Shown here piece after piece: positions 687 through 23,222 of a DNA stretch of 23,292 nt. Position numbers and translations under genes: made by a program. The stretch covers positions 1-23,292 of the IMG/VR virus record IMGVR_UViG_3300042520_001283, one strand, 5' to 3'. Each line of letters begins with the position of its first letter. The first letter of the stretch is position 1. This DNA is from a virus. The notes beneath the pieces were generated by a model. The model saw nothing but the letters and a program-made list of their open reading frames with translations, made no database searches and was not told where the DNA came from.

Positions 687-2468
687 TTACTCAGTTGGAA
701 AAACTCTATTATTGAATGCATCAATTCTTGCTGATTTATCAACAAGGCTCTTAAATCTTTTAAGGTCTTTCTTGTATTGTGCTGATTCTTTATCTGTTTC
801 AGATTTAAGGGTTGACATTAATGAATTTAATTCATTTGCTTCATTCGGATTCATTTCAAGAATTGGCAAAGTTTGAATTGGAACATATTTAGGCTCCACT
901 TCCCTAATTTTCATAAACGCATTGCCAGAAGACTTAATTACTCCACTTCTCATGTCGCTCAGTCGAGACAATAGTATTTCTGCACTTTGCGCTTGTTCAA
1001 TACTTCCTTTTGTAGATTGGAGTGCTTTTCTTTCGCCTTCCGTAAGGGAACCAAGTCCAGATGCACCTGTTGGAGAAAGTGATTTAAGTTCACCAAGTTT
1101 TTCAAATCCAATATTAGATTTCACAGATTCTAACGCTTCTGCAACATTAAAAATATCTTGTAATCTTTTTTCTGAAGGCTTGTATCCTGCAAGTGCAAGA
1201 AATTGTTGCCAACCAGCAACATCCCCAATAATTGGAAGAGGTTTCCCTGATTGATAACTTTGTGTAATAATACCAACAGCCTCTGGATTTGTATTTATTA
1301 GAGATATTGCTTGATCTATTAGATCAATATTTACAAGCGTATCATCAAGCTTTGTTTTTTGAGCATCCAAATATTGTCTATCGTCTTTTAGCTTTTTAGT
1401 TTCAGCATCAAGCCTGTCTCGATCAGCTTTTTCTCTTTCAATGGCTTGTTTGTTTTGAGCTAAAATAAGATTTTCTTTATCTATTCCACGCTTTTCTACC
1501 TCTCCGCTCGTGTCTTCTGGGCGCAAACTCCATTTAAAAGTTCTTGGATTTTGTTCTGGAATAAGTTTCCAGTATGCAGTGGAAAGTTTAGCGGCAGCAT
1601 CATAGGCTTTTGCTGATTCGCTTGGCTCAAACTCAATTCCAGCAACATTTCTTGGAGCTTTAATATCAGTTGGTTGCTCTGGCAATTTGCCAATTGCTTG
1701 AACTTCAGCTAATGGGGGCGTTGGAGCGGGAGCTGCCTCTGGCTGAACTTGAACGCCAGTTAATGCAGTTCCTTGAGTTGATACACGCTGAACACTTGGC
1801 ATTATATCTGGCTCAGGAATTATATCTGGTGGAGTGCCAACAACTATTGGAGATGGTTGCTGAATTGGAGATGGTTGCTGAATAGGTGCTGCTTCTGGAG
1901 GTGGTTCTGCTATATTTACTTCTTTTGCGGGTTCCCAATCGCCAACAGGAGTAGCGTCTGGAAGCACTGATTCGACTGGTGTTGGTGTTACAAAATCTCT
2001 ATCAATATTTGTTTTTCGAGGACTTGGTTTTACTACTGGAGTATTTCCAGATGGATTTACCATACCAAGTCTTTTAGCAGCCTCTCTGATTCCACTTATT
2101 CTTTCAGGCAAGTCCGCTGACAAACCTTCTTCTGCGGTAGTTTTTAGAATTAGTTCATCAATAAATTGCTTATTTTTTGTCTGCTGCTTTGCTTCTTCAA
2201 GAAGTAGTTCATATCCATATTTACGTTTCTCTTTCTCCTTTTCCTCTTCCTTCTCATACCTAGCGGTAATTCCACCAAGCGCACCCTTTGCAATATTGCT
2301 AATAGCACCAGCAATACCTTCAGTAACAAGCTCTGGTCGAGAAGACTGAATTTCAATTTTATCAAGTGGACGAAACTGAAGATTTGCACCGCGAGTTACA
2401 TCAATTGCAGGCAAAGGTTGCAAACCAGATAGGTTAGCGAATTGAGGATTGAAAGAGTAGTCAGCCAT
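687..2468 (-). CDS. Coiled-coil, Pro-rich probable internal virion protein (593 aa)
   Basis: I recognise no named family. Residues about 70-105 are very rich in Glu and Lys and should form a helix or coiled coil. Residues about 140-275 are low-complexity and Pro-rich, including a repeated IQQPSP unit near 196-207. A second strongly charged coiled coil spans about 325-375. The C-terminal third is helical and contains LKSLSPTGASGLGSLTEGER (461-480), a segment of a type I associate with phage structural proteins near the ejection genes. The start codon at 2468 overlaps the preceding stop (TAATG), and GGAGG lies 6 bases upstream inside the preceding gene, one of the few clear Shine-Dalgarno sites here. 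The context (between Gln/Ala-rich proteins and a large membrane-active candidate) suggests a virion component delivered with the DNA or lining the tail channel. Existence as a gene is near certain; function is inferred. Confidence 0.8.
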   Translation of the reverse strand: MADYSFNPQFANLSGLQPLPAIDVTRGANLQFRPLDKIEIQSSRPELVTEGIAGAISNIAKGALGGITARYEKEEEKEKEKRKYGYELLLEEAKQQTKNKQFIDELILKTTAEEGLSADLPERISGIREAAKRLGMVNPSGNTPVVKPSPRKTNIDRDFVTPTPVESVLPDATPVGDWEPAKEVNIAEPPPEAAPIQQPSPIQQPSPIVVGTPPDIIPEPDIMPSVQRVSTQGTALTGVQVQPEAAPAPTPPLAEVQAIGKLPEQPTDIKAPRNVAGIEFEPSESAKAYDAAAKLSTAYWKLIPEQNPRTFKWSLRPEDTSGEVEKRGIDKENLILAQNKQAIEREKADRDRLDAETKKLKDDRQYLDAQKTKLDDTLVNIDLIDQAISLINTNPEAVGIITQSYQSGKPLPIIGDVAGWQQFLALAGYKPSEKRLQDIFNVAEALESVKSNIGFEKLGELKSLSPTGASGLGSLTEGERKALQSTKGSIEQAQSAEILLSRLSDMRSGVIKSSGNAFMKIREVEPKYVPIQTLPILEMNPNEANELNSLMSTLKSETDKESAQYKKDLKRFKSLVDKSARIDAFNNRVFPTE

Positions 2469-3456: not shown

Positions 3457-3762
3457 TTAAATAAGTTGAGTGTTAATGTTTAGTTTTTTTCTTGCCTCAT
3501 GGCATAACTCGCCATTTGGTTTAAATTGCCTACAAGAATCAGGTCTGTCAAAATAAATTGAACAGGAAACGCAACTTCCAACAATTCCTTCAAGGGCAAT
3601 GCATCTATTGTTTTCAGTTTTCATTAAAGGATAATCCATTCTTTGCATTTCTTTAGGGATCTTTTCGCAATCCGATCTATCTCGTCTAAGAACAGGCCAA
3701 GACCATTTATAAGAGCAACAAGCACCACATGAAATACAATCATTTTCAGTTACTTCTTCCAT
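3457..3762 (-). CDS. YkgJ-type zinc/iron-binding cysteine-cluster protein (101 aa)
   Basis: The N terminus carries CISCGACC (Cys9, 12, 15, 16), the CxxCxxCC signature of the YkgJ-like putative zinc- or iron-chelating family. Further cysteines at about 32, 54, 64, 67, 77 and 87, including CVSC and the SCRQFKPNGELC stretch, are also as expected for that family, whose members are thought to bind metal through these residues but whose biochemical role is poorly defined. The length is near a minimal family member. The start at 3762 lies inside the PAPS-reductase-like gene and the two overlap by 13 bases, so the pair is probably produced together and may work together. Both are surrounded by virion genes. 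A metal- or Fe-S-related maturation or modification role is an inference. Confidence 0.85.
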   Translation of the reverse strand: MEEVTENDCISCGACCSYKWSWPVLRRDRSDCEKIPKEMQRMDYPLMKTENNRCIALEGIVGSCVSCSIYFDRPDSCRQFKPNGELCHEARKKLNINTQLI

Positions 3763-4586
3763 TCAATAGGACGAAATCCCAAGTCATCAATAACAATGTC
3801 TTCATATGGGGCCATGTCGCTGATATTTGTGATTGTAGCATTGAGTTTAGGGCAGTGGACATGACGATCTAAATGGCGATTAACGCAATTAAAACAAGTT
3901 GGGTAGAAATCAGCATTGAGTGACTTATCTGGATTGTTTTTCCAATTCTGATTTTCTTTAATGTATCGAGTAGGATCAGGCTCAATCCCGTTATCTTCTA
4001 AATACCAGAAGATTTCCTCATCTGTCCAGTCACGCATTGGATAGAGAGATACGGGAGATCCGTCAACAATCCTGATGTCTTGAGCTAATGGAACATGTCC
4101 CTTAATCAAATCCGTATCCTCAAACTTTGTTCCAATATAGACAGCACCCCAAGGCCAGTTAAATGTTCCAGTAGGACGTTGTAAGAAGTCAGTCACTCCA
4201 CATAGAAATTTCTCTCCTTCTTTTGGCTTTTCAGTTCCAAGCGACAAAATCACGCAATCTCGGCCCCATTGGAAGTAGTGAAGCATGTCAAAACGAACAT
4301 CGCCAGTATTGACATCTGGCCCATCTGCCAATGCTACTTTCATTGGAGGATATTCATATACCTCAAGATTCCACTCTTTGATGAGGTAATCAGAATAGGC
4401 ATATCGCTCACGGAATTTTGGCTGACGATATTGAATAACAGGAACATCAATCTCTGCTCCGTATCGGATAAGGTGAAGCAATGCCGTAGAGTCTTTCCCT
4501 CCGCTCCACAAAACAACTGCTCTAGGCCACCTTTTATTCCATTCCTTTATTTTATTTATTGTTTTATTTATTAGGTGTTGTCTCAT
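3750..4586 (-). CDS. PAPS reductase / ATP pyrophosphatase family protein (278 aa)
   Basis: The PP-loop SGGKDST is at residues 28-34, after a short helical N terminus, and marks the adenine-nucleotide alpha-hydrolase fold shared by PAPS reductases, ATP sulfurylase small subunits and thiolation enzymes. PMRDWTDEEIFWYLEDNGIE (183-202) matches the family's conserved Trp-Thr helix. The C-terminal part holds Cys231, Cys234 and Cys245 (CFNC and HC), a possible metal site. I do not see the ECGLH-type C-terminal catalytic motif of assimilatory PAPS reductase, so sulfate reduction is not assured; nucleic-acid or nucleotide sulfur modification or another adenylating reaction is possible. The start overlaps the upstream stop (TAATG), and the 3' end overlaps the YkgJ-like gene by 13 bases. 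Family membership is strong; the substrate is unknown. Confidence 0.88.
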   Translation of the reverse strand: MRQHLINKTINKIKEWNKRWPRAVVLWSGGKDSTALLHLIRYGAEIDVPVIQYRQPKFRERYAYSDYLIKEWNLEVYEYPPMKVALADGPDVNTGDVRFDMLHYFQWGRDCVILSLGTEKPKEGEKFLCGVTDFLQRPTGTFNWPWGAVYIGTKFEDTDLIKGHVPLAQDIRIVDGSPVSLYPMRDWTDEEIFWYLEDNGIEPDPTRYIKENQNWKNNPDKSLNADFYPTCFNCVNRHLDRHVHCPKLNATITNISDMAPYEDIVIDDLGFRPIEWKK

Positions 4587-6631: not shown

Positions 6632-6886
6632 TTAATTAAATCCAACTTTTGCATTGTTACCTGCAATATCGTTAGGAATATAATCTTTAAATCGGTTTGC
6701 CTGTTGTGCAATGATTTTTTTGCGATCAGCATAATTTCCACAAGCAGCGCAAGGAAGACATCCTTTCTCTGGATTGAATAAAGGAATGGAGGAATACAAT
6801 GGAACAACGGCATCATTTTTAAAAGGAGTGATGTATTTAAACGGGAAGCTAGTTACTTCTCTAGTTGCTGTTGTAATTGATGGCAT
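6632..6886 (-). CDS. Small CxxCxxC protein (84 aa)
   Basis: The start at 6886 follows the stop of the nozzle candidate by one base (TAATATG). This start fills the space between two firm genes without a long overlap; a start 13 codons earlier at 6925 is possible but would overlap the nozzle gene. The frame stays open far upstream, but that part runs antiparallel in logic to nothing and simply shadows the nozzle gene in another frame. The centre has CLPCAAC (about residues 43-49), a compact metal-ligand arrangement, followed by a basic helix (ADRKKIIAQQANRFKDYI). No known family comes to mind. A small zinc-binding virion or assembly factor is one guess. Reality as a gene rests on the tight fit in the operon. 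Confidence 0.6.
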   Translation of the reverse strand: MPSITTATREVTSFPFKYITPFKNDAVVPLYSSIPLFNPEKGCLPCAACGNYADRKKIIAQQANRFKDYIPNDIAGNNAKVGFN

Positions 6887-6887
6887 A

Positions 6888-9020
6888 TTAGCAAGGGTTT
6901 TGGGCCAGATATTGTTTCGCCGCATTGCTTGCTGCATTTTCAGCAAGAATGCCAGCTTGGTTTTTTGCATCAATTTGAGATATGCTAGAAAGAAAGCTCG
7001 CTGATGCTGTTGCTGAAATAGATTTACTTGGATTAGCAGTGCATGGAAGACTAACCGTTCTATACTCTTTAGCCCACCAAGATTTCTGAGATGTGTCAGC
7101 TTGCTCGTATGGGCTTGGCAGGAGATCAACGGTGAGACTGGTTCCATCCTGAGAAATAACACACGATTTGACTTCTGGAGAATTAGGAACACCCGTGCTG
7201 CGCTCGCTCCAAGGATCAAGGAATACCCTCAATGACTCAACGCCAAATTCACCGCACCACTCGATAAGCATGGAGAATGCCTTATCAATGTCGTTGGTCA
7301 GTTTTGATTCACAGGTAATATACGATGCCCTTCTGGTGGTGCTTTCAGTCACTAATCTGCGATATTGTGTATTCAGAAATCCAAGGCTCTCTATCTCGTC
7401 AGAAAAGTCTGTATTGACCCACTGATAATCGTCAGTAACTGCCAATATTTTTGTTTCAAGAATACTTTGATATGTCCCCTTCGATCCTCGATACGAAGCC
7501 TTGACATCCACAGTTCCACCAATTTCGCAAGCCTCAATTTCACCATACTGGAATTGCTTGAAATCAAGTCCATCTCCTAAAAGCCCAGTTTCCATCTGGC
7601 AGTAAATTCGATTGACTTTTTCAATGATTCCCCCATCTGGATCTATGTCAAAATAGGTATCAGCTCTGCGCTCAGTGAATGCCTCCCAGAGATGATTGTA
7701 TGAGCCATCATTTGTTGCTGAGTAGTCAACGGAAAAATGGAAGCAACGAGGCGCACCATCAATCACTCCAGAAATCCATTCAACGGGGCGAGTGCCAGTC
7801 CAAACGCCACACCATGCAGGAATCTTCTGTGTCCCCCACTCTGCCGCTGGAGCATAGTCAAGAACCATTGTAGCAGAGTTACAAGGCTCAAGATATGGCA
7901 CGGAATAGAGAAGGTAATTCTCAAATGTCATCGCGCAAATCTTAGACGTATCTCCAGCCATGTATGCCTTTACGCGAGCCATCTCAACGTCACGATAAAG
8001 TGACTCCGATGTAACATAGACTGACGCCGCAATGTCAGCAGATATTAGTCCGCCTTGGGAATACCACCAGATTTGTCCAGCTTGGAACGAAATAGATTTG
8101 CCAGCAACGCATCCGATAGTTGGATACAATGTGGTTTGAAAGTTAGCTGTGCTTGCCCACTGCGTTCTGTCGTAGATTCCGCTTGCTAGTGAGTATGTCG
8201 CACGGTCAGTGAATACAACCAGCTTTGTGTCGTTATCCTGACCAATGTAATTCGTCATTCCAGTGACAACGCGAGCAAACGCAAAGTCACCACGTCCAGT
8301 TCCAGTCAGCCTTTCAGTAAATGATGTCGGGTCGCCAAGGTCAGATGCCAGCACGATATTCTTCGCAGAAACCCAAAGACGATTACCGCTAAATGCCATC
8401 CAGTATCCAGTAGGAATAGAGGTTGTCTGAATACCAGTTTGGTTTGATCCATCCCAGTATGCAGGAGCAGAAATGCCATCTTGAATTACAATGATTCGAT
8501 GCGATGGAGTTACCGTTACATCGCCACCAGTTGAAACCTGTGCGGTCTGGGTTGCTAGAGTAAAAACAAACTGATCTACGCTTGGATCAAGCTGGATATT
8601 TTTGAGTCGAAAATCTTCCCAGCTTTTAGGTTGAGTCAATGGGAATGGAGAGTAATAAACGCTGCCATTTACAGCAAAAACGACATAAGGAATTTCATCA
8701 GCAACAACACTAGTTCCATCTGGATTGAAAATCTGTGCTGGAACAACTTTTGTTACTCCATTTTGGACTATCGACTCGGATGCGTTAGATTGCTTGTTTG
8801 AAGAAAACAAAATGCCGCCTTGAAAGTTGCCGGGAGGCAGAGAAAGCCTCATAGAGTATCCCGGCCTAGTCTGGACTACTCCACCGCGAACAGAGCAGTT
8901 TACGGCCCATTTGATTTGATTATCAGGCAATGCCCAAGGATTGCGAACTGAGTTCACGCCTAGAAGCCAGCCAGACGAAGCCTTGACTTCTCTTCCTGAA
9001 GTAATCTGTGCGCTTTTCAT
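6888..9020 (-). CDS. Probable tail nozzle / tubular protein B-like (710 aa)
   Basis: The N terminus contains GVNSVRNPWALPDNQIKWAV and, after a few residues, GGVVQTRPG (about 46-54). This pattern (named Pro, then 'Leu-Pro-Asp', then Asn, then Arg-Pro-Gly) is typical of phage tail nozzle or stabilisation proteins. NRLWVSAKNIVLASDLGDPTSF (about 213-234) resembles a beta-propeller blade motif seen in the same proteins. The last 50 residues are Ala/Ser-rich and helical. The ATG at 9020 overlaps the adaptor stop (TAATG); I chose it over an ATG 14 codons earlier because the earlier one lies inside the adaptor gene. Adaptor followed by nozzle is the usual order in short-tailed phages (compare T7 gp11-gp12). 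The assignment is by pattern and order, not by alignment, so the exact family is uncertain. Confidence 0.7.
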   Translation of the reverse strand: MKSAQITSGREVKASSGWLLGVNSVRNPWALPDNQIKWAVNCSVRGGVVQTRPGYSMRLSLPPGNFQGGILFSSNKQSNASESIVQNGVTKVVPAQIFNPDGTSVVADEIPYVVFAVNGSVYYSPFPLTQPKSWEDFRLKNIQLDPSVDQFVFTLATQTAQVSTGGDVTVTPSHRIIVIQDGISAPAYWDGSNQTGIQTTSIPTGYWMAFSGNRLWVSAKNIVLASDLGDPTSFTERLTGTGRGDFAFARVVTGMTNYIGQDNDTKLVVFTDRATYSLASGIYDRTQWASTANFQTTLYPTIGCVAGKSISFQAGQIWWYSQGGLISADIAASVYVTSESLYRDVEMARVKAYMAGDTSKICAMTFENYLLYSVPYLEPCNSATMVLDYAPAAEWGTQKIPAWCGVWTGTRPVEWISGVIDGAPRCFHFSVDYSATNDGSYNHLWEAFTERRADTYFDIDPDGGIIEKVNRIYCQMETGLLGDGLDFKQFQYGEIEACEIGGTVDVKASYRGSKGTYQSILETKILAVTDDYQWVNTDFSDEIESLGFLNTQYRRLVTESTTRRASYITCESKLTNDIDKAFSMLIEWCGEFGVESLRVFLDPWSERSTGVPNSPEVKSCVISQDGTSLTVDLLPSPYEQADTSQKSWWAKEYRTVSLPCTANPSKSISATASASFLSSISQIDAKNQAGILAENAASNAAKQYLAQNPC

Positions 9021-12000
9021 TAGAACATTACTGGGTCTGCACCATCTCCCTCTGCGTAGCAAACGGAATTTATCTGCGGAACAACCATGGCGTGTCCATC
9101 AATACTCTCTTGCTGATTCTTTAGATAAGCAAAAGCAATCTGCCAGTATCGAGCCGATTGATCTGCGAAATCTTTATCTTCCAAATCGCAAGCGTGAACA
9201 GCAGTAACAATTGCTCGCTCTTGCTCAAGTGGGATGAAGTCATAGACGCTGGTGATGCTTGGAGTCTGGATACGATAAGAAATCCTAGCCCAAGCACAAG
9301 GTTTGCCAATGCGAATCCTGCGATACTGAGGATTTACTTCAGAAGGATGATACTGACCAATTAAGGTCATGTCATTGCTGCGGCCATAGTCGTAAGCGTA
9401 AAGCGAAACGTAACCCTCAGTGATAGGCTTATCTACTTGATAAACAGACTTGACGAATGTTGGTGGAGTTACGGAGTCAATAATGAATGTAGATTCATTG
9501 GTATTGCCGCTAGTCGTGTAAGAAATACGACCAACTACCGAAGTCTCATTCCTTGCGTTATTAACAGTATTGTATAGCTCAAACGAATCATTATCTATCC
9601 TGCGAGCATAGTATGTCGTTCCAGCAGTCAAGCCAGTTGGAAGAACATCTCCCTCTTTAGCGCGAGGAACAACAGCATCTCCAGTGTTGAACTGAGCTTG
9701 ATACGCATCAATGCTAGTAGATGGCAGAACATTAAATTGACGAATAATATCAACGCTGAGTTGCCCAATGCCGGGGGTGGTTAGGCTCTGTAGTGTTGAG
9801 CCAAGATATACCTTGAACGAATTTCCAGATAACTTGATCGTATAATTGGTTCCAGCAAGAAGTGGAGATGGAAGTGTATTTGTAGTAGAGAATCTAACGA
9901 CTTCATCCTCGTTCAAATACTGAATGCCACTAGGAGTGATTAAGTCTCCAAATGGAAGTGACTGGAATGCTTTTCTAAGAGCATAGTAAGACTGACCAGA
10001 ACCAAAAGATGTAATAGTAATAAGTCCAGTAGAACCACCAGATATAGCATTTGCCTGAGAATTATAAACTCTTCCGGTCTCATCATTTATTTTATTTAGA
10101 TAAAACGGAGTAACGCCATTATCAATAGATGGATTTGTATTTGGAAGGAGGTAATCAGTTCCAAAGTAAATCCTTTGTCCAGTAGAAAGATTATTAAATT
10201 CGCCTTCCCAATTATTATTGAACGTGACGCTAAATGAACGCGAAAGAGAAACAAAGAGAGACCCAGTTCCAGAGGATGTTATATTTACATCACTAAAATC
10301 ACTATTCTTAACAGTAAAATTACCAGTAGATGTATTTAGTGGCGTTTCTGCTCTATACGCAGTTCCAGAAACAAGCGGAGACGGAAGGCTTCCTGTTGAT
10401 GTGAAACTAATAAAAACACCAGTTGAGGGGGTTATTATAACAATAGGAGTAGATGTATATCCACTGCCAGATGTTATTGCTTTAACTAGAGTAACATTTC
10501 CAGATGTTATAGTTATTCCTGCATTTGATGCAGTTCCATTTGGAGATCCAGTAGCTGCAAATGTAAATGTAAGTGCAGCGGGATTTGCAATATAAGACTT
10601 AGGACTTGATCCAAGAACAGGAGACGCAGATGTTGTTGTTATTGAAAATTTAAATGTTGTTGCATCAAACACATCAACAACAAATGGAATATTTGCATAT
10701 TGAGATGGAGAAACATCGCTAAATCTAATAACATCTCCAGTTGAGTAATTGTGGTTTGTTGATGTTACAACTGTTACAATATCAGAATCAACGCCTCTAG
10801 TCATTGAAGATATTGTTTTATTTATTATTGGAACAGATGTTATTGTTTTTTGACCATTTAAATATGTTGATAGCGGCCCAGTAACATTTGTTATTTCAAT
10901 AATCTGCCCAACATCAAATCCATGAGGAGTAGTTGATGTTACTGTGGCAACCTGAGAAGAAACTGCTATGCTACTAGCATTTAGTGTTGTGCTATTAACT
11001 TCAGCAACTGCTGTTGCTCCAGACCCGCCTCCCCCAGTAATCTTAACTTGTGGAGAAGTTGTATATCCATATCCTCCAGATATTTTATTAAAATGAGAAA
11101 CAAAAGATTTTGTTATGGTTGCAACAGCGGTGGCTTGTGATCCAGATATTTTTTGAGCTGTTATATCTGTGCCACCAGCAGGGCTTCCAAGAAGCGAGGA
11201 TACGGAATATGTAAATGTTTTTGCTCCAGCATCTACAGCAATAATTGTTTTTGTTCCATTGAATCCGCTTGGAGACGCCCCGTCTACTATTACAGTATCT
11301 CCAGCAATGTATCCATGCGTTTCATTGGTTGTTGCTGTCGCAATTGTTCCTATATATGCAGTAGAAATTATTGTTCCAGTTGCTGGACTTACTGTTATTG
11401 TTGAAAGAGTTGTATATGTAAATGTATCATTATCTATTTTGTTTATAGTAAATGTTCCATTGTAATAAGATGGACTTGCTCCGCTTATTGTAACAACTTG
11501 ATTGTCTGCATATCCATGATTATTAATAATGCAAGTTGCAGTAGTTCCAGAACCAGTAAGGTTTCCAGCAGAAATTGTTTCATTTGCTCCAACCTTTGTT
11601 ATTGATGATACAGTCAGCAACTGCTGAACTGGCTGATCTATTGTTACCGTTGGAGCCTCGGTATATCCAAATCCGGGATCAGTTATTACAATATTAAGAA
11701 GCTTATTATTTATAGTATCTCTTATTGAGTATCCAGATGCTGTTTTTTGCTGACCATACAATGGGCTTTCTTCTGGAAGTATTGGTGGACTTGAGAATGT
11801 GACATTTGGATCTGTAACATATCCACTGCCTTGAGAAATAACACGGACAGATGTTACCGACCCAACCGTTACGGCTTGGAAATTAGCTCCAGTTCCAGAT
11901 GGAGTATCAATATTCAATCCACTTGCGCTTATTTGCTGGCTTGTTCCTGTTATAGATGTTGCAGGGATTAGCTTTACAATAGAATTTGTTCCGCTACCAG

Positions 12001-13303
12001 AATCTTTAAGAACAATAGGATTAACAAGGCTAGTTGGAGTAGATGCAACAGCGTCAGCCTTGTTTTCGTGCAAAGAAACCGTAAATGGATCAATGATATT
12101 TACGAAGTAGTTCTGGTTTGCAATGAGTGGCTTTGGCAGGGTTCCGCTGGCAGTAAATGCCTGAACCTGATCTCCATTATTGTAGTAATGACGAACAGAA
12201 AATGTTAGGGTTGTCTGAGGGTCAATCTGTTTGCGAATATCTACTTCTAGCGTTCCGGGTGCAGGAGGCACAGGCCCAGTAGTTCCAGTAGTGTAAACTG
12301 GATTGATATTCTTTTTCGCATCATTCTCGCTCTCAAATACAGTCAGATGCGTTGCATCTTCAGCATTCGCATAGTAAATCGTTTCAGAATTAAGCGGAGA
12401 AGGCAAGGACTGTCCTGCTGGGAATGTAATTTGATTCGCCTCATCAAGCGTAAATGCAGGAGCAGAAGCCAATTCAAGGGCGGTTACAACTTGCGCTTCA
12501 CGGCTATCCTTAAACTCCAAATTCCCGGCACCAACGATGCTTTGCAGGTTGATCGGATACTGCAATGCCTCCGCATTCAGAGGATCGTTGAAAAGTTGAA
12601 CGGTGTAAGCATCAATTACTCCGATGTAGTATGTCTGACCATTCTCAAGAGCAACGGGGATCGTTCCAGTTATCGCAGTAACGCTCATTCCTTGACCAGA
12701 GGATAGGCCATGCTCAGTTGAAGACTCAAACAGGTTGATTGGAGTGATTGCAACGCTACGAGTCCTTACAGTCGCACCATCTGGAGTAATCGTTCCATAA
12801 GCAAAATCACTCTGTGAGTGAATTGGAACAAGCAAACCATCAACTCCAGTTCCGTTAGCAAGCTGGGAACGAATCGTTCTGTTGTTTTGATCCTTTCCAA
12901 GAACACGGATTGTCTTGCCAACATCATTCTCTAGTTCAGCTACAGCTACAAGTTGGGAAGGCTGAATGATGTCCATCAGCGTTGCAACATATCCTCGATC
13001 ATCCCACGCCCACTCAACGGAATTAAACATTCCGCCTTTATTTACATGATATTGAAATAGACGATTGCGGAAATATGTTGGAGAACCATCAATATTAACA
13101 GCAAGCGGCACATCAATTCCGCGAGGAAGAGTAACCGTGCATTTGTCCCAACCCGTGCAGACATCGACATCAGCAACTGAATGAGTCCAATGTCCAGACT
13201 CCATTAGAGTTGCTACTGCCTGCTGAATCTTGCGAAAGATTTTACTTTCGTCAGTTGTTCCTAAGATTTCAGCGCATTCTTCAAAGATTTGAGAGACAAA
13301 CAT
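9020..13303 (-). CDS. Adaptor-like protein with giant repeat-module insertion (1427 aa)
   Basis: The ends look like one split domain: residues 1-130 are a helical then beta region (FEECAEILG, IFRKIQQAVATLMESGHWTH), and 1295-1427 contain YRRIRIGKPCAWARISYR and a helical end (QERAIVTAVHACDLEDKDF). This recalls adaptor or tubular protein A-like proteins, usually only a few hundred residues. Between them lie about 1150 residues of beta-rich repeats of three kinds. LPSPL-x-xGTxYY units occur near 214, 299, 388, 972, 1143 and 1220. GxGYTxxPxVxI units occur near 492, 544, 744 and 946. HGYxxGDxVxIxGASPxxYNGT units occur near 596, 663, 794 and 851. The stop overlaps the nozzle start. The modules probably decorate the neck or bind carbohydrate, which is inference. 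The frame is uninterrupted. A tail-fibre-like role for the whole protein is the main alternative. Confidence 0.75.
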   Translation of the reverse strand: MFVSQIFEECAEILGTTDESKIFRKIQQAVATLMESGHWTHSVADVDVCTGWDKCTVTLPRGIDVPLAVNIDGSPTYFRNRLFQYHVNKGGMFNSVEWAWDDRGYVATLMDIIQPSQLVAVAELENDVGKTIRVLGKDQNNRTIRSQLANGTGVDGLLVPIHSQSDFAYGTITPDGATVRTRSVAITPINLFESSTEHGLSSGQGMSVTAITGTIPVALENGQTYYIGVIDAYTVQLFNDPLNAEALQYPINLQSIVGAGNLEFKDSREAQVVTALELASAPAFTLDEANQITFPAGQSLPSPLNSETIYYANAEDATHLTVFESENDAKKNINPVYTTGTTGPVPPAPGTLEVDIRKQIDPQTTLTFSVRHYYNNGDQVQAFTASGTLPKPLIANQNYFVNIIDPFTVSLHENKADAVASTPTSLVNPIVLKDSGSGTNSIVKLIPATSITGTSQQISASGLNIDTPSGTGANFQAVTVGSVTSVRVISQGSGYVTDPNVTFSSPPILPEESPLYGQQKTASGYSIRDTINNKLLNIVITDPGFGYTEAPTVTIDQPVQQLLTVSSITKVGANETISAGNLTGSGTTATCIINNHGYADNQVVTISGASPSYYNGTFTINKIDNDTFTYTTLSTITVSPATGTIISTAYIGTIATATTNETHGYIAGDTVIVDGASPSGFNGTKTIIAVDAGAKTFTYSVSSLLGSPAGGTDITAQKISGSQATAVATITKSFVSHFNKISGGYGYTTSPQVKITGGGGSGATAVAEVNSTTLNASSIAVSSQVATVTSTTPHGFDVGQIIEITNVTGPLSTYLNGQKTITSVPIINKTISSMTRGVDSDIVTVVTSTNHNYSTGDVIRFSDVSPSQYANIPFVVDVFDATTFKFSITTTSASPVLGSSPKSYIANPAALTFTFAATGSPNGTASNAGITITSGNVTLVKAITSGSGYTSTPIVIITPSTGVFISFTSTGSLPSPLVSGTAYRAETPLNTSTGNFTVKNSDFSDVNITSSGTGSLFVSLSRSFSVTFNNNWEGEFNNLSTGQRIYFGTDYLLPNTNPSIDNGVTPFYLNKINDETGRVYNSQANAISGGSTGLITITSFGSGQSYYALRKAFQSLPFGDLITPSGIQYLNEDEVVRFSTTNTLPSPLLAGTNYTIKLSGNSFKVYLGSTLQSLTTPGIGQLSVDIIRQFNVLPSTSIDAYQAQFNTGDAVVPRAKEGDVLPTGLTAGTTYYARRIDNDSFELYNTVNNARNETSVVGRISYTTSGNTNESTFIIDSVTPPTFVKSVYQVDKPITEGYVSLYAYDYGRSNDMTLIGQYHPSEVNPQYRRIRIGKPCAWARISYRIQTPSITSVYDFIPLEQERAIVTAVHACDLEDKDFADQSARYWQIAFAYLKNQQESIDGHAMVVPQINSVCYAEGDGADPVMF

Positions 13304-14108: not shown

Positions 14109-14969
14109 TTATTTGACCTGCCAGTCTCTAATTACAATATTGTTTGGCTTATTTCCTTTAACAATATTGTTTGATGCAAGATCGTTTGGGTTTTCACTTG
14201 ATCCAAATGGTTTGCTGGTATCTCTTGTTTTAAATTTATTTCCAGCCATGTAAAAATATTTGATAAATTTTGACCTCGATCCAAGCCAAATAGCAGGATG
14301 AAGAATCTGATTCAATCTATCGGAAATAGCATTACTGTATTTGAATGTATTATTCAGAATCTTATTAAAACTAGGAGTCTGATGCCTGATTGTTCCTCCT
14401 TCTCCTAAATTCCTATAAAGATAGATTCCACCAAAATCAAGATATTCAAAAGTATTGTTTTGAATTGTATTGTATGCTGAACCATCAACAGCAATAGCTT
14501 CTCTTTTAGTTTTAGTTTTAAAGGTATTATTCTGAATTATATTGTATGCAGACTCGCAATCTAAATATACCGCAACAGATTCTGCCGATCCTGTTATCTC
14601 GCTATTTTGAAGAGTGATTCTTGTGCATCCCGGAGCAACATAAAATGGAGTTCTTTTATTTGCTTTGATCTTGATATTATCAAAAATAATATTTTTTGGA
14701 GCTACGGATTGAGCATGGTCTGTATGGTTTTTGTTCTTAGATGATTTTTTAACTAATTCAGCTTCTCCATTTGAACCTAATCCAATTATTCTTACAGAAC
14801 CATTAACAACAAAATTTTTGATTGTAATATTTTCTGGAACAAACCAGTTGTCTCCTTGCTGAATAGATTTTACCAACAAGCAATCGTTGCCTTCCAATAC
14901 TTTTCCATTACCATCTATTACTTGATTGTTAGCACTGCTACCTTCAATGATAAATGTAATATTACTCAT
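14109..14969 (-). CDS. Right-handed beta-helix protein without visible virion anchor (286 aa)
   Basis: The middle shows parallel beta-helix repeats: YNIIQNNTFKTK (near 141), YNTIQNNTFEYLDFGGIYLY (near 165) and FNKILNNTFKYS (near 201), as in NosD or pectate-lyase-like folds, and earlier coils such as ITIKNFVVNG and NIIFDNIKIKA. Such helices in phages usually form tailspikes or glycan-cleaving tail proteins. Unlike the next gene upstream, its N terminus lacks the TTARTLENRF and DFGAVGNG segments that commonly link spikes to the virion, and no C-terminal globular domain is evident. It may be a trimmed second spike, a spike-associated enzyme, or a protein that docks on the upstream spike. Catalytic residues cannot be assigned by eye. 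Two tiny frames precede its start in the 43-base gap. Confidence 0.75.
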   Translation of the reverse strand: MSNITFIIEGSSANNQVIDGNGKVLEGNDCLLVKSIQQGDNWFVPENITIKNFVVNGSVRIIGLGSNGEAELVKKSSKNKNHTDHAQSVAPKNIIFDNIKIKANKRTPFYVAPGCTRITLQNSEITGSAESVAVYLDCESAYNIIQNNTFKTKTKREAIAVDGSAYNTIQNNTFEYLDFGGIYLYRNLGEGGTIRHQTPSFNKILNNTFKYSNAISDRLNQILHPAIWLGSRSKFIKYFYMAGNKFKTRDTSKPFGSSENPNDLASNNIVKGNKPNNIVIRDWQVK

Positions 14970-15012: not shown

Positions 15013-16716
15013 TTACATTGATTTTTCAATTAACAAATAACTATTTGTTAAATCTATATTTAGCGAACCGCCTGAATTTTGGAATGCAACTACATTGATA
15101 GAATTTCCAGCATCGCAATACATAACAGCACTTATATTAACGGTTGTTGGCGAAGATGCCGTTCCTTGAATACTTGAGTTATATTCGTTAATTGGGGTTA
15201 TTCCGTTTCTAGCTATTGTTATTCTGCGAAGACCTGTTGCGTTTGCTGCAAATTGAATATTTGCAGTAACCTTGTAATTACCCGGAGTTTTCACATAAAC
15301 ATCTGTATTGTTTATAGAAACATTATGTAACCTTTGCGGGTCGGAAATATTTTTATTAAATTGTATAAATGTCGAATCGTTATTAGGAATGCTTTGGTTT
15401 CCCGTTCCAGCAATTAAAGTTATATTTGGTCCAAAATTATTTGATGATCCATTGAATACAATTCCTTCAGAAGCACTACAATATTCAATTGTATTTGCTA
15501 TTGATTTATTATATCCGAATGTTGGATTTTCAGGAAGTGTTACATCGCAGCTATATGCATCAGTTGTTGTTTGCGGGGTATTAGTATCTGTTACTTCGCA
15601 ATTAATTATTCTAATACCATTAGGCCAAGGCGTTGTTGGATCATTATTCCCAACTAGTCTAAAACCTGTTCCTTTTGAATTAACAACTTTGCAGTTATTT
15701 ACATTTATTCTTGATGTATAATATATCCATTGTTTAGACGGGTCTAATGGAATTGCAAGCGACTGTGATCCAAAGAAAAATCCAGATAATCCCGGATTAT
15801 TTGCAATGCATCCAGTAACAATTCCATCGTGAGTTACATTCTTAAATGCAAACCCTAGTATTCCAGCATTATTTGCAGTGCATCCGCTAATTGTAAAGCG
15901 GCGGTTTCCCTCCATATATGATGGTGAAGAATCGCTAACCCCTCCAGAAAAATCATAACATTGATCCGTGCTAGTGCTATTACACCCAATAATTGTGCAG
16001 TCTCTAACTTCTGTAAATAGAAAGCCCCGACTCCATTTTATTATTGGTGTTCCAGCTATTACACATAAAAGATTATATGCATTACAATTGCTTACAATGA
16101 AATTAGCGCAATCCCCAATATCATACCCATTCATTATATCATTTGTAGGGTCTGGCGTGAATGCTGCTGTGCAGTTGTGGACAAGGCATCCATCTATAAC
16201 AAATCTTTTTGAATTATGCACTCGTATTCTGCTTCCATTTCCATCCCCTGTAACTGTAATATTTGATATACGGAAATTTTCATTATACGAACCAGCTACA
16301 TTATAAACTAGTAATGCGTTTTTGCTACTATCATCATCTGCTCCTGTGTTCTGGACATTGCCCATATCGAATGAGCAGTTCTCAATAAACCAATTATTAA
16401 GATTGTATATGCGCAATGTAGCAACACTTGGTGTGGTTGGGGCTAACTGAATAAAGTTAGCATTTTGTAATCCAACAATAGATGTAGGAGTGCAACTACC
16501 AGAGATTCCATATGTCCTTCCACCACCATCAACTGGCCTTCCGCTTTCTAATGCCAATTTAACTGCCGCTAAATCATTTGTAGTTCCATTACCAACAGCA
16601 CCGAAATCCAATGGGCTTACAAAGTCAGTAAAACGATTTTCAAGAGTTCTTGCAGTAGTTGATCCAGTTGCTGTAATTGGAGCAATTACATTTTGTGTTG
16701 CTTTAGTTAATGGCAT
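15013..16716 (-). CDS. Tailspike: anchor, pectate-lyase-like beta-helix, C1q-like C terminus (567 aa)
   Basis: The N terminus carries TTARTLENRFTDFVSPLDFG (20-39) and then AVGNGTTND, the widespread phage spike entry motif linking a virion-binding region to a pectate-lyase-3-type helix. Residues about 45-430 show repeated beta-helix coils rich in Asn, Cys and Gly (for example NFIVSNCNAYN, RFTISGCTANNAG, GIVTGCIANNPG, RINVNNCKVVNSKG, IRIINCEVTDT), with ladders of Cys/Asn. The last 135 residues read like a C1q/TNF-type jelly roll (TFIQFNKN, VKTPGNYKVTANIQFAAN, DAGNSINVVAFQN, YLLIEKS). The product probably forms a trimeric spike that binds or cuts a surface glycan. The leader is A-rich with no Shine-Dalgarno sequence. 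The active site cannot be placed by eye, so enzymatic activity is open. Confidence 0.85.
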   Translation of the reverse strand: MPLTKATQNVIAPITATGSTTARTLENRFTDFVSPLDFGAVGNGTTNDLAAVKLALESGRPVDGGGRTYGISGSCTPTSIVGLQNANFIQLAPTTPSVATLRIYNLNNWFIENCSFDMGNVQNTGADDDSSKNALLVYNVAGSYNENFRISNITVTGDGNGSRIRVHNSKRFVIDGCLVHNCTAAFTPDPTNDIMNGYDIGDCANFIVSNCNAYNLLCVIAGTPIIKWSRGFLFTEVRDCTIIGCNSTSTDQCYDFSGGVSDSSPSYMEGNRRFTISGCTANNAGILGFAFKNVTHDGIVTGCIANNPGLSGFFFGSQSLAIPLDPSKQWIYYTSRINVNNCKVVNSKGTGFRLVGNNDPTTPWPNGIRIINCEVTDTNTPQTTTDAYSCDVTLPENPTFGYNKSIANTIEYCSASEGIVFNGSSNNFGPNITLIAGTGNQSIPNNDSTFIQFNKNISDPQRLHNVSINNTDVYVKTPGNYKVTANIQFAANATGLRRITIARNGITPINEYNSSIQGTASSPTTVNISAVMYCDAGNSINVVAFQNSGGSLNIDLTNSYLLIEKSM

Positions 16717-16749: not shown

Positions 16750-18495
16750 TTAAGCTATTGATAGTGATATTATTGTTATTTCTGATCCCGATGGTATTGG
16801 TGTCGAGAAAGTTAATGTTCTTGGGATAACATTGTCAATTGTATAATTTGTTGATTTTTGATAAACTCCATCAATATGAACCAAGTAAGCTGGCGAAAGT
16901 ATAGACAATCCTCCAGTAATTGAAAATACTGTTTGAATTCCATCGCCAGTATATGCCCATGCGCCACCGAAATTTGTAGGCGGCAATACCCCAGTCGCGC
17001 CTGTCGAACCTTGGGTTCCAACTCCCGTAGCACCAGTAGAACCTTGCGTTCCAACGCCAGTCGCGCCTGTCGAACCTTGGGTTCCAACTCCTGTCGCGCC
17101 AGTTGCGCCTTGAGTTCCTATACCAGTTGCACCTGTCGGGCCACCACTTGGCCCAGTAGCACCTTGAATTCCAGTTGCTCCTGTTGCTCCACCGGGAGTT
17201 CCCTGCGATCCAGTCGCTCCAGTCAACCCAGTTGCACCAGTTGAGCCAACATCTCCAGTAGGTGCAATATACCAATATGCGTAAAATCCAGCACCTTCTA
17301 TTCGATCAACTTGAATTTTAACTTCTGTATTATTAACTTCTAAAACAACTCCTTCAACATAATCAAATGGATATGCAGAAACCGCCGTTGCCCTCAACCG
17401 AGTTCCATAATCCCATCCAACATTGGTTGGAACATAAGAAAATTCTTTTATTCCTCCACTAATATTATTTTGAGTAAAAGATACAACATTTAAAACTTCA
17501 GAAATTCCAGTTGCACCAGTGCTGCCCTGCAAACCAGTTGCACCAGAAATTCCGTTTAAAGAAATAATAACAATTTCTGATCCAGAAGGAACAGGTGAAG
17601 ACATTGTTAAGATTGCTCCGCTTATTGAGTAATTATTGGGGTCTTGAGTTACCCCATCAATATTTACTGAATAAGCTAATGGATTATTTGTAGTATTGCC
17701 AGAAATATTAAATACAGTATTATTACTTCCTGTGTATGCCCACCGGATTCCGCCGAAAGGCCCGGCAGAGCCTGCAACCCCAGTTGCTCCAGTCAATCCT
17801 GTAGCCCCAGTTGAACCCGCTCCAGTTGCACCAGTTGCGCCTCTAACTCCGGTTGATCCAATAACGCCCGTGGCTCCTGTAGAACCAAATCCTGTTGCGC
17901 CTCGCGGCCCAATCAAGCCAGTTGCTCCAGAAGCTCCAATTAATCCTTGAATTCCAGTTGCGCCAGTTGAACCAATAATTCCTGTTGCGCCTGTTGCTCC
18001 AGCCCTGCTGGAAAGTTCAACAACAACCATTTGCGTTCCAGTTGTGAGAGGAGTTGTTGAAGTAAGAACCCTTGGTAGAGTTGTCGAAATAGTATATGTC
18101 AATGGATCTTGAACAATTCCATTCCGAGTTACAATATATCCAACTCGATTTGGTTGATGCGCTCCCGGCAATGGGAATGTTGTTTGCCCACTTCCAGAAA
18201 ATCCCCAACGCAAAAATTCTCCACCAGACAAATATTCATCAAATAATCGAAGAAGATAACAAAGCAATCCTTCTCCCTCTTCTCTTGGAATACTATCTGC
18301 TTCGGCAGTATTATTTGGGTCGCAAGGAATATCCCAAACAACCCGTCCATTGACAACAGTCTTGTTAATGGTTCCATAAAGAGCGTAAACAAGATTTGAA
18401 ATAAGCGACGGAACACTTTCAGGCGAAACCTGAGGATATGGAGTGTCTGGGCAGCAGGTGTTGCTGTATGTGGAATTATTGCAATTGCAGGACAT
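16750..18495 (-). CDS. Collagen-like tail fibre with three copies of a ~70-residue module (581 aa)
   Basis: The N terminus is Cys-rich (Cys3, 5, 14, 15, later 58 and 79) and probably the attachment region. Residues about 94-163, 248-314 and 508-579 are three copies of one beta module (pattern W-x-Y/F-x-G ... T-x-F ... DG-V-x-Q-x-P ... Y-T/S-I ... SGSEIxIISL). Collagen-like Gly-X-Thr repeats (GATGATG type) fill 165-246 and 413-503, and a separate beta domain (about 330-412) lies between. Collagen-like Gly-X-Y stretches form trimeric stalks in many phage fibres; the modules likely bind receptors, which is inference. A 15-base leader element (TTGACAAAATAATTT) is shared with the other fibre. The second collagen block has a 35-base exact repeat. 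The frame is intact over its whole length. Confidence 0.85.
   Translation of the reverse strand: MSCNCNNSTYSNTCCPDTPYPQVSPESVPSLISNLVYALYGTINKTVVNGRVVWDIPCDPNNTAEADSIPREEGEGLLCYLLRLFDEYLSGGEFLRWGFSGSGQTTFPLPGAHQPNRVGYIVTRNGIVQDPLTYTISTTLPRVLTSTTPLTTGTQMVVVELSSRAGATGATGIIGSTGATGIQGLIGASGATGLIGPRGATGFGSTGATGVIGSTGVRGATGATGAGSTGATGLTGATGVAGSAGPFGGIRWAYTGSNNTVFNISGNTTNNPLAYSVNIDGVTQDPNNYSISGAILTMSSPVPSGSEIVIISLNGISGATGLQGSTGATGISEVLNVVSFTQNNISGGIKEFSYVPTNVGWDYGTRLRATAVSAYPFDYVEGVVLEVNNTEVKIQVDRIEGAGFYAYWYIAPTGDVGSTGATGLTGATGSQGTPGGATGATGIQGATGPSGGPTGATGIGTQGATGATGVGTQGSTGATGVGTQGSTGATGVGTQGSTGATGVLPPTNFGGAWAYTGDGIQTVFSITGGLSILSPAYLVHIDGVYQKSTNYTIDNVIPRTLTFSTPIPSGSEITIISLSIA
16987..17259 (-). repeat. 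Collagen-like coding repeat, second block of the 581-aa fibre
   Basis: Gly-X-Thr triplets, mostly GATGATG and [10 protein letters not shown] units, are coded here. The last four GVGTQG(S/A)TGAT units are 33 bases apart. A 35-base exact copy occurs at 16991-17025 and 17057-17091. Confidence 0.8.
16991..17091 (-). repeat. Exact 35-base direct repeat at 66-base spacing in the fibre gene
   Basis: Bases 16991-17025 and 17057-17091 are identical, while the intervening unit (encoding the same peptide) differs at several wobble positions. This suggests recent duplication, unequal exchange or gene conversion inside the collagen-like stalk. Confidence 0.8.
17758..18003 (-). repeat. Collagen-like coding repeat, first block of the 581-aa fibre
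   Basis: Codes for Gly-X-Y triplets with Thr often in Y (GATGATG, GSTGATG, GASGATG). It joins the first and second beta modules of the fibre and probably forms a triple-helical stalk. Confidence 0.75.
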
Positions 18496-21353: not shown

Positions 21354-23222
21354 TTATCCTACGATAATATAAATTGTATTTGCGTTGGGCGTTACGATTA
21401 AATCGTATCCAGCTTGCGTGATTTGAACGATATTAGAAAGTTGAGTCGCACCCGTAAGCCCAGTAGTGTCTGATAGAACAATATTTGCTGGCGTTACCCC
21501 AGTTGCTCCCGTCGAGCCTTGTGTTCCTACTCCCGTAGCCCCCGTAGCTCCATCTGCTCCCGCAACGCCAGTCGCGCCAGTCGCGCCTTGCGTTCCGACT
21601 CCAGTAGCTCCAGTTGCCCCCGTGCTTCCTTGTTCTCCAGTCAAGCCTGTTGCTCCCGTGGAGCCTTGACCGCCTGTAAGACCAGTAGCACCAGTCGCAC
21701 CCAACTGACCATACATTACTTGCGTTGCAGTAAGAATGACAGATGGAATTGCTGGTGCAGGAGCGAGAGCAGGAGCGTATTCAAGCGTAATTCCAAGGTT
21801 ATTGGTTTTCCAGAAAAGCTCAAGATATTCGCCAGCTAGAACTTTAAGAACATAGTTTACTGTTCCAATCGCCCGTCCATCAGACCCGCCATGAGATTCT
21901 ACAACACTCCACTGAGAATCGGTATCAGCGACATTCGTTCCATTTTTCTTGAGCCAGATATTTGCATCGTGGATTTGGTTATTTGAATTGTTCCACTGAA
22001 CAGAAAATGTGATGGAATAGACTCCAGTGTATTGGAAGGTAATTTGACTATTGGCAACAATTGATACGCCGATAGAATCTGGATCGGTATTGTTGTAAGT
22101 AATCGGATATCCAGTATTGATGGCAGTAGCGGATTGCGGTTGAGTTGACCAGAATGATCCCCAATATCCAGATGCTCCACCAGCACCAGTTAATCCTGTA
22201 GCTCCGACTAATCCCGTGGCTCCCGTAGCACCGCTTGCGCCAATGCCTGTAGCACCTGTAGCCCCATCAACGCCAGAGACTCCTGTCGCACCTGTCGATC
22301 CTGTAGCTCCATCTGCTCCAGCAATACCCGTGGCTCCAGTCGAGCCTGTATCGCCAATAACGCCCGTAGCTCCTGTAGAGCCAGTTGCCCCGACATCACC
22401 TTGTGTTCCTGTAGCTCCAGTCGCTCCATCTACACCAGCAATACCTGTAGCTCCTGTGGCTCCTTCAAGACCAGTTGCTCCAGTGGCCCCTCTAACCCCA
22501 GTCAATCCCGTAGCACCAGTCGCGCCCGTGGCTCCGAGATCGCCAGTAGCTCCTGTGGCTCCAACATCACCTTGGACTCCAGTTGCTCCTGTCGAACCAG
22601 TTGCTCCATTTGTTCCAGAAATTCCTGTCGCGCCAGTTGAACCAGTCGCTCCATCAAGTCCAGCTATCCCTGTTGCTCCCGTGGAACCAGTTGCGCCATC
22701 AACGCCAGAAATTCCAGTTGCCCCCGTCGATCCTGTCGCTCCCGTGGCTCCGTCTGTTCCAGAAAGACCAGTCGCACCTGTGGCTCCGTCTGTTCCTGCT
22801 GTTCCAGTAGCTCCCGTGGCTCCATCTGGGCCTGTAGCACCACCATCTGCCACTGGTGTCCATGAAGCATTTATTGAACCCGGTGTTGGAGGGTATCCGG
22901 GGTTAAGTGGGTTTCCCGTCCTGTAATAATAACCGCCTTGAAAAGTAACTGCCGCTCCAAGATTATAGGAAGCACCATTGTCATATACTGTCGCTGGCAA
23001 TGTCCAAGGTGTTGGCCCTTGGATTCCCGTGGCCCCTGTGCTTCCATCATTTCCTGCAACTCCCGTGGCCCCAGTTGTTCCCGCTCCGATTGGCCCCGTG
23101 GCTCCCGTAGCACCCGTTGGGCCTCCAGATGGGCCTGTGGCCCCAGTTGCCCCAATTGCTGCGGTGGATTGACTTCCAATGAAGTCAAGCTTTCCAGTAA
23201 ATGGGTTAAATGTGAGTGCCAT
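21354..23222 (-). CDS. Collagen-like tail fibre with C1q-like globular domain (622 aa)
   Basis: The N terminus [16 protein letters not shown] is a short conserved-looking entry often seen on phage fibres. Residues 22-70 are collagen-like. Residues 71-127 form a small module rich in Tyr/Trp ([20 protein letters not shown], then SINASWTPV) resembling carbohydrate-binding modules. Residues 128-349 are a long Gly-X-Y stretch with Thr at Y (GATGATG). Residues 352-505 look like a C1q/TNF-type jelly roll ([34 protein letters not shown]). A second collagen block (506-577) and a 45-residue beta tail follow. This probably forms a trimeric host-binding fibre, or a structural fibre. The leader has AAGGA 9-10 bases before the ATG. 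It ends the structural block before the lysis genes. Confidence 0.85.
21492..21707 (-). repeat. Collagen-like coding repeat, C-terminal block of the 622-aa fibre
   Basis: Codes for GATGATG and GSTGATG type triplets after the C1q-like domain. Placement of a collagen stalk after the globular domain is unusual, since such heads are commonly terminal. Confidence 0.75.
22176..22841 (-). repeat. Collagen-like coding repeat, main stalk of the 622-aa fibre
   Basis: About 74 Gly-X-Y triplets, mainly Gly-Ala-Thr and Gly-Ser-Thr with occasional Gly-x-Asp, are coded here. Wobble positions vary between units, so it is a protein repeat kept by selection more than a recent DNA expansion. The antisense frame gives an artefactual Pro-Val-Ala reading. 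Confidence 0.8.
23013..23159 (-). repeat. Collagen-like coding repeat, N-terminal block of the 622-aa fibre
   Basis: Gly-X-Y triplets ([18 protein letters not shown]) lie between the entry segment and the Tyr/Trp-rich module of the fibre. Confidence 0.7.

Follow-up and report, generated by a model that had tools for sequence, protein, structure and literature searches.

A predicted head-to-tail adaptor in a family of short-tailed phages contains a giant internal insertion of small beta modules that vary in number

The window analysed here is a 23,292-nucleotide stretch of viral DNA (IMG/VR record IMGVR_UViG_3300042520_001283), and the gene under study is a single open reading frame on its minus strand (13303-9020) that runs without interruption for 1,427 amino acids. 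We interpret its product (whole gene, 9020..13303) as a predicted head-to-tail adaptor with a giant internal insertion. Five parts follow one another on this strand. The N-terminal part (residues 1-180; 12764..13303), predicted to belong to the adaptor body and kept in all relatives, begins with helices at residues 3-14 and 19-35 and continues with beta strands, a secondary structure that we took from the model of a relative, L080. It is followed by a constant outgoing limb (residues 181-510; 11774..12763) of three LPxPL-type beta modules and the first GxGY unit, a variable centre (residues 511-957; 10433..11773) with GxGY units and four E1_FCCH-like HGY..YNGT modules, and a constant returning limb (residues 958-1286; 9446..10432) of three further LPxPL-type modules. 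The C-terminal part (residues 1287-1427; 9023..9445), likewise predicted to belong to the adaptor body, consists of a strand pair (RRIRI..ARISYRI) and two helices. Across the family, the outgoing limb is of near-constant length, with beta structure in the L080 model, and the variable centre measures about 110 to 500 residues. The returning limb of some relatives holds an extra HGY..YNG module near residue 1085.

The original prediction, which was made from this sequence alone, had described six, four and four units of three repeat families in one frame, and these counts agree with our motif scan. The LPxPL-type units, found by motif scan and reading, start at residues 215 (degenerate, IPVAL), 300, 389, 973, 1144 and 1221; the GxGYxxxP units lie near residues 492, 545, 743 and 945; and the HG[YF]xxGD..V (HGY..YNGT) units lie at residues 596, 663, 794 and 851, the last two being degenerate. 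Compared with composition-preserving shuffles, self-similarity reached z values of 6 to 10 in many windows between residues ~181 and 1161 and stayed near 0 in windows within residues 1-140 and past residue 1260. Thus, the repeats exceed chance and the ends are non-repetitive, which confirms the earlier observation of a repeat-filled middle between two ends in one reading frame. A search for DNA tandem repeats returned nothing within the gene, which indicates that the copying of the protein modules is old; with no internal DNA similarity detected in the gene either, recent tandem duplication is ruled out.

Is this architecture shared by other phages? Our scan of 2.9 million viral contigs matched 183 stretches, of which the best 80 were kept, while scanning with only the N end yielded 157 stretches and with only the C end 279. 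Together with the window's own protein, we obtained 83 distinct full-length proteins (82 relatives) of a large family of uncultured phages, all intact, so that a chimaeric or broken gene is ruled out. They span 1,084 to 1,499 amino acids and form a ladder (1084; 1166-1178; 1230-1260; 1320-1345; 1422-1427; 1476-1499) with steps of ~80 residues. The distance from residue 511 to a conserved PSTGVF motif is ~110, 193, 268, 350, 437 or 497 residues, and the remainder of the protein amounts to ~980 residues, or ~1,060 where a second site is occupied. Indeed, pairwise gaps show that the unit gained or lost is one HG[YF]..YNG module of 75-82 residues, or two modules of 136-164 residues together, at three fixed sites (residues ~587-723, 773-934 and 1085 of the window protein). 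Only the HGY..YNGT modules vary in number; the GxGY and LPxPL units look constant family-wide, as are both ends. The ends, which had looked conserved in the original prediction, are the most conserved part of the family; mean column identity is 88% in residues 1-162 and 84% in the final 144.

Among 233 pairs of proteins whose ends are at least 95% identical, both limbs are 88% identical and the variable centre is 69% identical. Over short stretches of DNA, the module copies within a gene reach a likeness of ~70-80% at most, and this low value makes exchange of the variable modules between phages likelier, as far as can be read from sequence, than recent duplication. The shortest full-length protein still has 1,084 residues, and no insert-free relative was among those collected, so that the ancestral insertion event is not seen. 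A tblastn search of 50,697 phage records with both ends, the portal candidate and the capsid candidate gave no match, and searching bacterial and archaeal genomes with the N end revealed no relative.

The modules themselves can be assigned to a known fold. Residues 841-892 match the Pfam family E1_FCCH (PF16190) at 4.1e-10 and 40 bits, above the curated cut-off of 29.5, and the repeats in the L080 model match the FCCH barrel of Uba1 and Uba6 with Z scores of 6-7. By a profile score above the cut-off and a small beta-barrel fold, the modules, though not the protein as a whole, belong to E1_FCCH. The likeness to ubiquitin-activating enzymes consists in the profile and the barrel fold of the HGY-type modules; unlike these enzymes, the window protein has serial repeats within a virion protein, and nothing suggests ubiquitin chemistry. 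A ubiquitin-related function, for which only the Pfam name spoke, was rejected. A Foldseek search against predicted viral proteins returned module-rich virion proteins, and one against the Protein Data Bank (PDB) gave no match at E 0.001 or better. Among the proteins that share the modules are baseplate and structural proteins of cyanophages and, from uncultured phages, P22 gp10-like proteins; a weak module copy is present in gp39 of Roseobacter phage CRP-901, a 707-amino-acid structural protein at the nozzle position.

The phage is short-tailed, as judged from its ejection protein. This internal virion protein of 593 amino acids (687..2468, minus strand) has a 571-amino-acid counterpart in the related genome G001 (62 kb), which matches Mx8 p56 (44% identity over 149 residues, 2e-29) as well as proteins of CRP-901, Pam1 and the DNA transfer proteins of P22-like phages. 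Mx8, Pam1 and the P22-like phages are short-tailed. Genome G001 also encodes a large terminase (phrog_2, 8.6e-12) and a portal candidate of 807 amino acids; none of its open reading frames examined was recognised as a tail-tube or tape-measure gene. Two side observations concern this region. After the ejection protein, G001 (G001:C1:44424-50819) and a second related genome (G004:C1:11151-21602) encode a giant protein of 2,131 to 3,483 amino acids, which varies greatly in size and is possibly a large ejected protein. Amid the virion genes of the window (3457-4586, minus strand) lie an SGGKDS-type gene like PAPS reductases (278 amino acids) and a small cysteine-rich protein (101 amino acids); the former occupies the same place in G001 and G004, and the cysteine-rich neighbour was seen in G004.

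The order of the genes is that of a short-tailed phage, with the putative adaptor, a nozzle candidate (by position) and ejection genes in succession. In Mx8, the adaptor p51, which belongs to the Pfam family SU10_adaptor (2.3e-10), is followed by p52, p53 and then the virion structural proteins p54, p56 and p57; in the window, the 1,427-amino-acid gene is followed by genes of 710 and 129 amino acids and then by candidates for internal proteins. The 710-amino-acid gene (6888..9020, minus strand), whose start overlaps the stop codon of the putative adaptor gene, sits where T7 gp12 and Mx8 p52 do, and its product shows a weak PHROG match to an internal virion protein family. Overlapping its end in another frame is a small cysteine-containing open reading frame (6632-6887, minus strand; CLPCAACGNY), which is also present in G001. 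Upstream of the putative adaptor, on the same strand, the window encodes a beta-helix protein (14109-14969), a spike-like protein with weak endosialidase N-terminal and BclA C-terminal matches (15013-16716) and two collagen-like fibre proteins (16750-18495 and 21354-23222).

Do the two ends form an adaptor body? We modelled the shortest relative, L080, from an alignment of 36 sequences (mean predicted local distance difference test score, pLDDT, of 62). The model shows helices at residues 3-14, 19-35, 1016-1030 and 1034-1058 and beta modules between them. Of 974 solved chains aligned to it, the best was 7z4b_DU of the SU10 virion (root-mean-square deviation 2.6 over 76 residues), with a Z score of 7.2, which we count as support and not as proof because the alignment tool regards a Z under its safe level of 8 as a possibly common arrangement. 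The alignment of this 222-residue chain spans model residues 1-1041 and thus uses residues from both ends across ~980 intervening ones. Entry 7z4b includes the SU10 adaptor (250 amino acids), and from its length we take 7z4b_DU to be almost certainly this protein, as no other SU10 chain is known to fit by length. At the sequence level, C ends compared with SU10-type adaptors scored at least 45 in 9.1% of pairs versus 0.8% for shuffled sequences, a sub-threshold signal whose best matches are in register. When 153 proteins and fragments were ranked with a combined adaptor profile, N and C ends of the family filled most of the top places reported, which are not independent of one another.

Several results, besides the Z score below the safe level, weigh against an adaptor. 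Profile searches of the ends against the PDB, PHROGs and Pfam gave nothing significant, and the SU10_adaptor profile (PF24175), which as a control does find the Mx8 and KPP25 adaptors, matched neither the ends nor anything in eight family genomes. The N ends showed no enrichment over shuffled sequences when compared with known adaptors. The ends of the L080 model are of low confidence, with a pLDDT mostly below 50 at residues 40-263 and 921-1002, and the structure prediction of the nozzle candidate failed (pLDDT 38), so that the identity of this neighbour rests on its position and weak matches. Profile-profile comparison with SU10-type adaptors did not reach significance, the known family members being too similar to one another (number of effective sequences, Neff, about 1.5). 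The comparison with T7 gp11 proposed earlier likewise gave no significant similarity at the profile level (Tube, PF17212), where a family Neff of 1.46 limits the power. Since the profiles remain below significance, we do not claim membership in SU10_adaptor, although the protein probably works like an SU10-type adaptor. The original prediction of an adaptor split by an insertion is thus partly supported: the short-tailed phage type, the Mx8-like gene order, the helix pairs at both ends and the top match to an SU10 chain speak for it, whereas a significant profile match to any adaptor family and a fold of the neighbouring nozzle candidate did not emerge. The adaptor body built from the two ends is supported but not proven, and we assign a probability of about two in three to the reading that this is an adaptor of the portal ring in which the fibre-dock segment has expanded into a beta arm that runs out and back and has a variable tip.

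The protein might instead be a tail fibre or spike that uses its conserved ends for anchoring and trimerisation, a view to which the occurrence of the modules in fibres and baseplate proteins and the missing adaptor profile match would lend themselves. We consider it improbable: both ends are conserved and non-repetitive, they meet on the adaptor-like chain 7z4b_DU, the gene order is that of an adaptor, and the window already holds four fibre-like genes. Moreover, no other open reading frame in G001 or G004 scores convincingly as an adaptor. The outcome that would have overturned the original prediction, homologues whose ends belong to a tail fibre, was not found, and the conserved C end had no fibre or spike match in profile searches. 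Equally doubtful is a different part of the neck, such as a head-completion or collar protein, that resembles adaptors in layout. Helix-strand-helix layouts are indeed common among connector proteins, and the T4-type neck protein gp14 of P-SSM2 also has GxGY repeats; however, in Mx8, which is short-tailed and has a related ejection protein, the adaptor occupies exactly the matching place, and the genome offers no better adaptor elsewhere. A less remote alternative, though still an unlikely one, keeps the adaptor and sees in the insert a docking or stabilising collar for the phage's own fibres and spikes, so that the number of modules would track the fibres held. The two collagen-like fibres and two beta-helix or spike-like proteins encoded upstream fit such a collar, as does the behaviour of docks in SU10, P22 and Sf6 described next; the faster divergence of the variable centre relative to the limbs, however, is more in keeping with an exposed, interacting tip than with a fixed dock.

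The portal-ring adaptor with a grown dock segment is best pictured from known adaptors. The dodecameric SU10 adaptor comprises a helix bundle, a dock domain for the long tail fibres and an embracing loop. Loops of the dock project radially and hold these fibres; P22 and Sf6, phages without long fibres, lack a dock domain (PMC9509320). T7 gp11 combines a fibre dock with a bundle of helices 1-4 (PMC6702177). By analogy, the gene product would be the adaptor ring under the portal of a short-tailed phage, with helices 1-2 and strands from the N end and strands and helices 3-4 from the C end forming the adaptor body, and with small beta modules totalling ~1,100 residues placed after helix 2 and before helix 3, at the fibre-dock position of T7 and SU10. 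Because the insert lies, like the dock, between the N- and C-terminal helix pairs, it should point outward, and with its start and end at a single point of the adaptor, it should form an out-and-back arm. The LPxPL modules would be the constant limbs leading outward and back. The HGY..YNGT modules, lying mid-sequence, are probably at the far tip, where these barrels would be added or removed singly or in pairs. A twelve-subunit ring like those of T7 and SU10 would give the neck up to twelve arms.

We speculate that such an arm would most likely hold or aid the fibres of the phage and make contact with the cell surface. Surface binding is plausible and fibre docking equally possible; the arm may bind the cell, dock the window's collagen-like fibres or brace the neck. 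Capsule binding, which the original prediction also raised, is speculation. It is conceivable, if rather unlikely in our estimate, that a neck ring with up to twelve out-and-back beta arms, whose tip modules are exchanged between phages, serves as a host-recognition corona of adjustable length. On this view, the outgoing and returning limbs may even pair with each other, given that almost all E1_FCCH matches in the model stretch from residue ~264 to ~845 although only ~75 residues are aligned.

How does this protein differ from known neck proteins? With the SU10-type adaptors (SU10 gp11 and the SU10_adaptor family, including Mx8 p51 and KPP25 gp15) it shares the predicted helix-strand layout, the gene order of Mx8 and a weak in-register sequence likeness at the C end, and the best structural match of the ends in the L080 model, at a Z below the safe level, is a chain of the SU10 virion; these adaptors have 219-250 amino acids, in contrast to the 1,084-1,499 found here, where the insert comprises ~750 to 1,200 residues. 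T7 gp11 is encoded directly upstream of the nozzle gene, as the window protein is of the nozzle candidate, and its plan of helix bundle and fibre dock is comparable to the one proposed here, but it is only 196 amino acids long. Its marine relatives L293-L296 reach ~300 amino acids through ~100 extra residues between helix 1 and helix 2, and not between the helix pairs as in the window protein. P-SSM2 gp14 (L391:659-2071; head closure Hc2, phrog_460) is likewise a neck protein split by several GxGYxxxP repeats, which its counterpart S-PM2 gp14 lacks; it differs in belonging to a long-tailed contractile phage, in its core protein and in having only ~180 extra residues. An Mx8-type SU10 adaptor from IMG/VR (L365:2992-4053), 53% identical to Mx8 p51 in the best segment, carries ~105 inserted residues between its strands and C-terminal helices, which is one small insert in another loop. 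Insertion into neck proteins is therefore seen elsewhere at a small scale, and the new part is the size of the insert, ~750 to 1,200 residues, together with its varying module number. In the part of the literature that our search covered, we found no description of such an adaptor.

In summary, the adaptors that connect portal and nozzle are as a rule small and conserved. If our reading is correct, a ring protein has grown five- to seven-fold, with a module count that differs between phages whose ends are almost identical, and the neck, not the fibres alone, would be an evolvable display site. This reading would predict neck arms with length steps set by the number of modules, and it would account for the failure of annotation tools to recognise the adaptor of such phages. 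The occurrence of the same module families in T4-type neck proteins, in a protein at the nozzle position and in baseplate proteins points to a shared pool of mobile beta modules.

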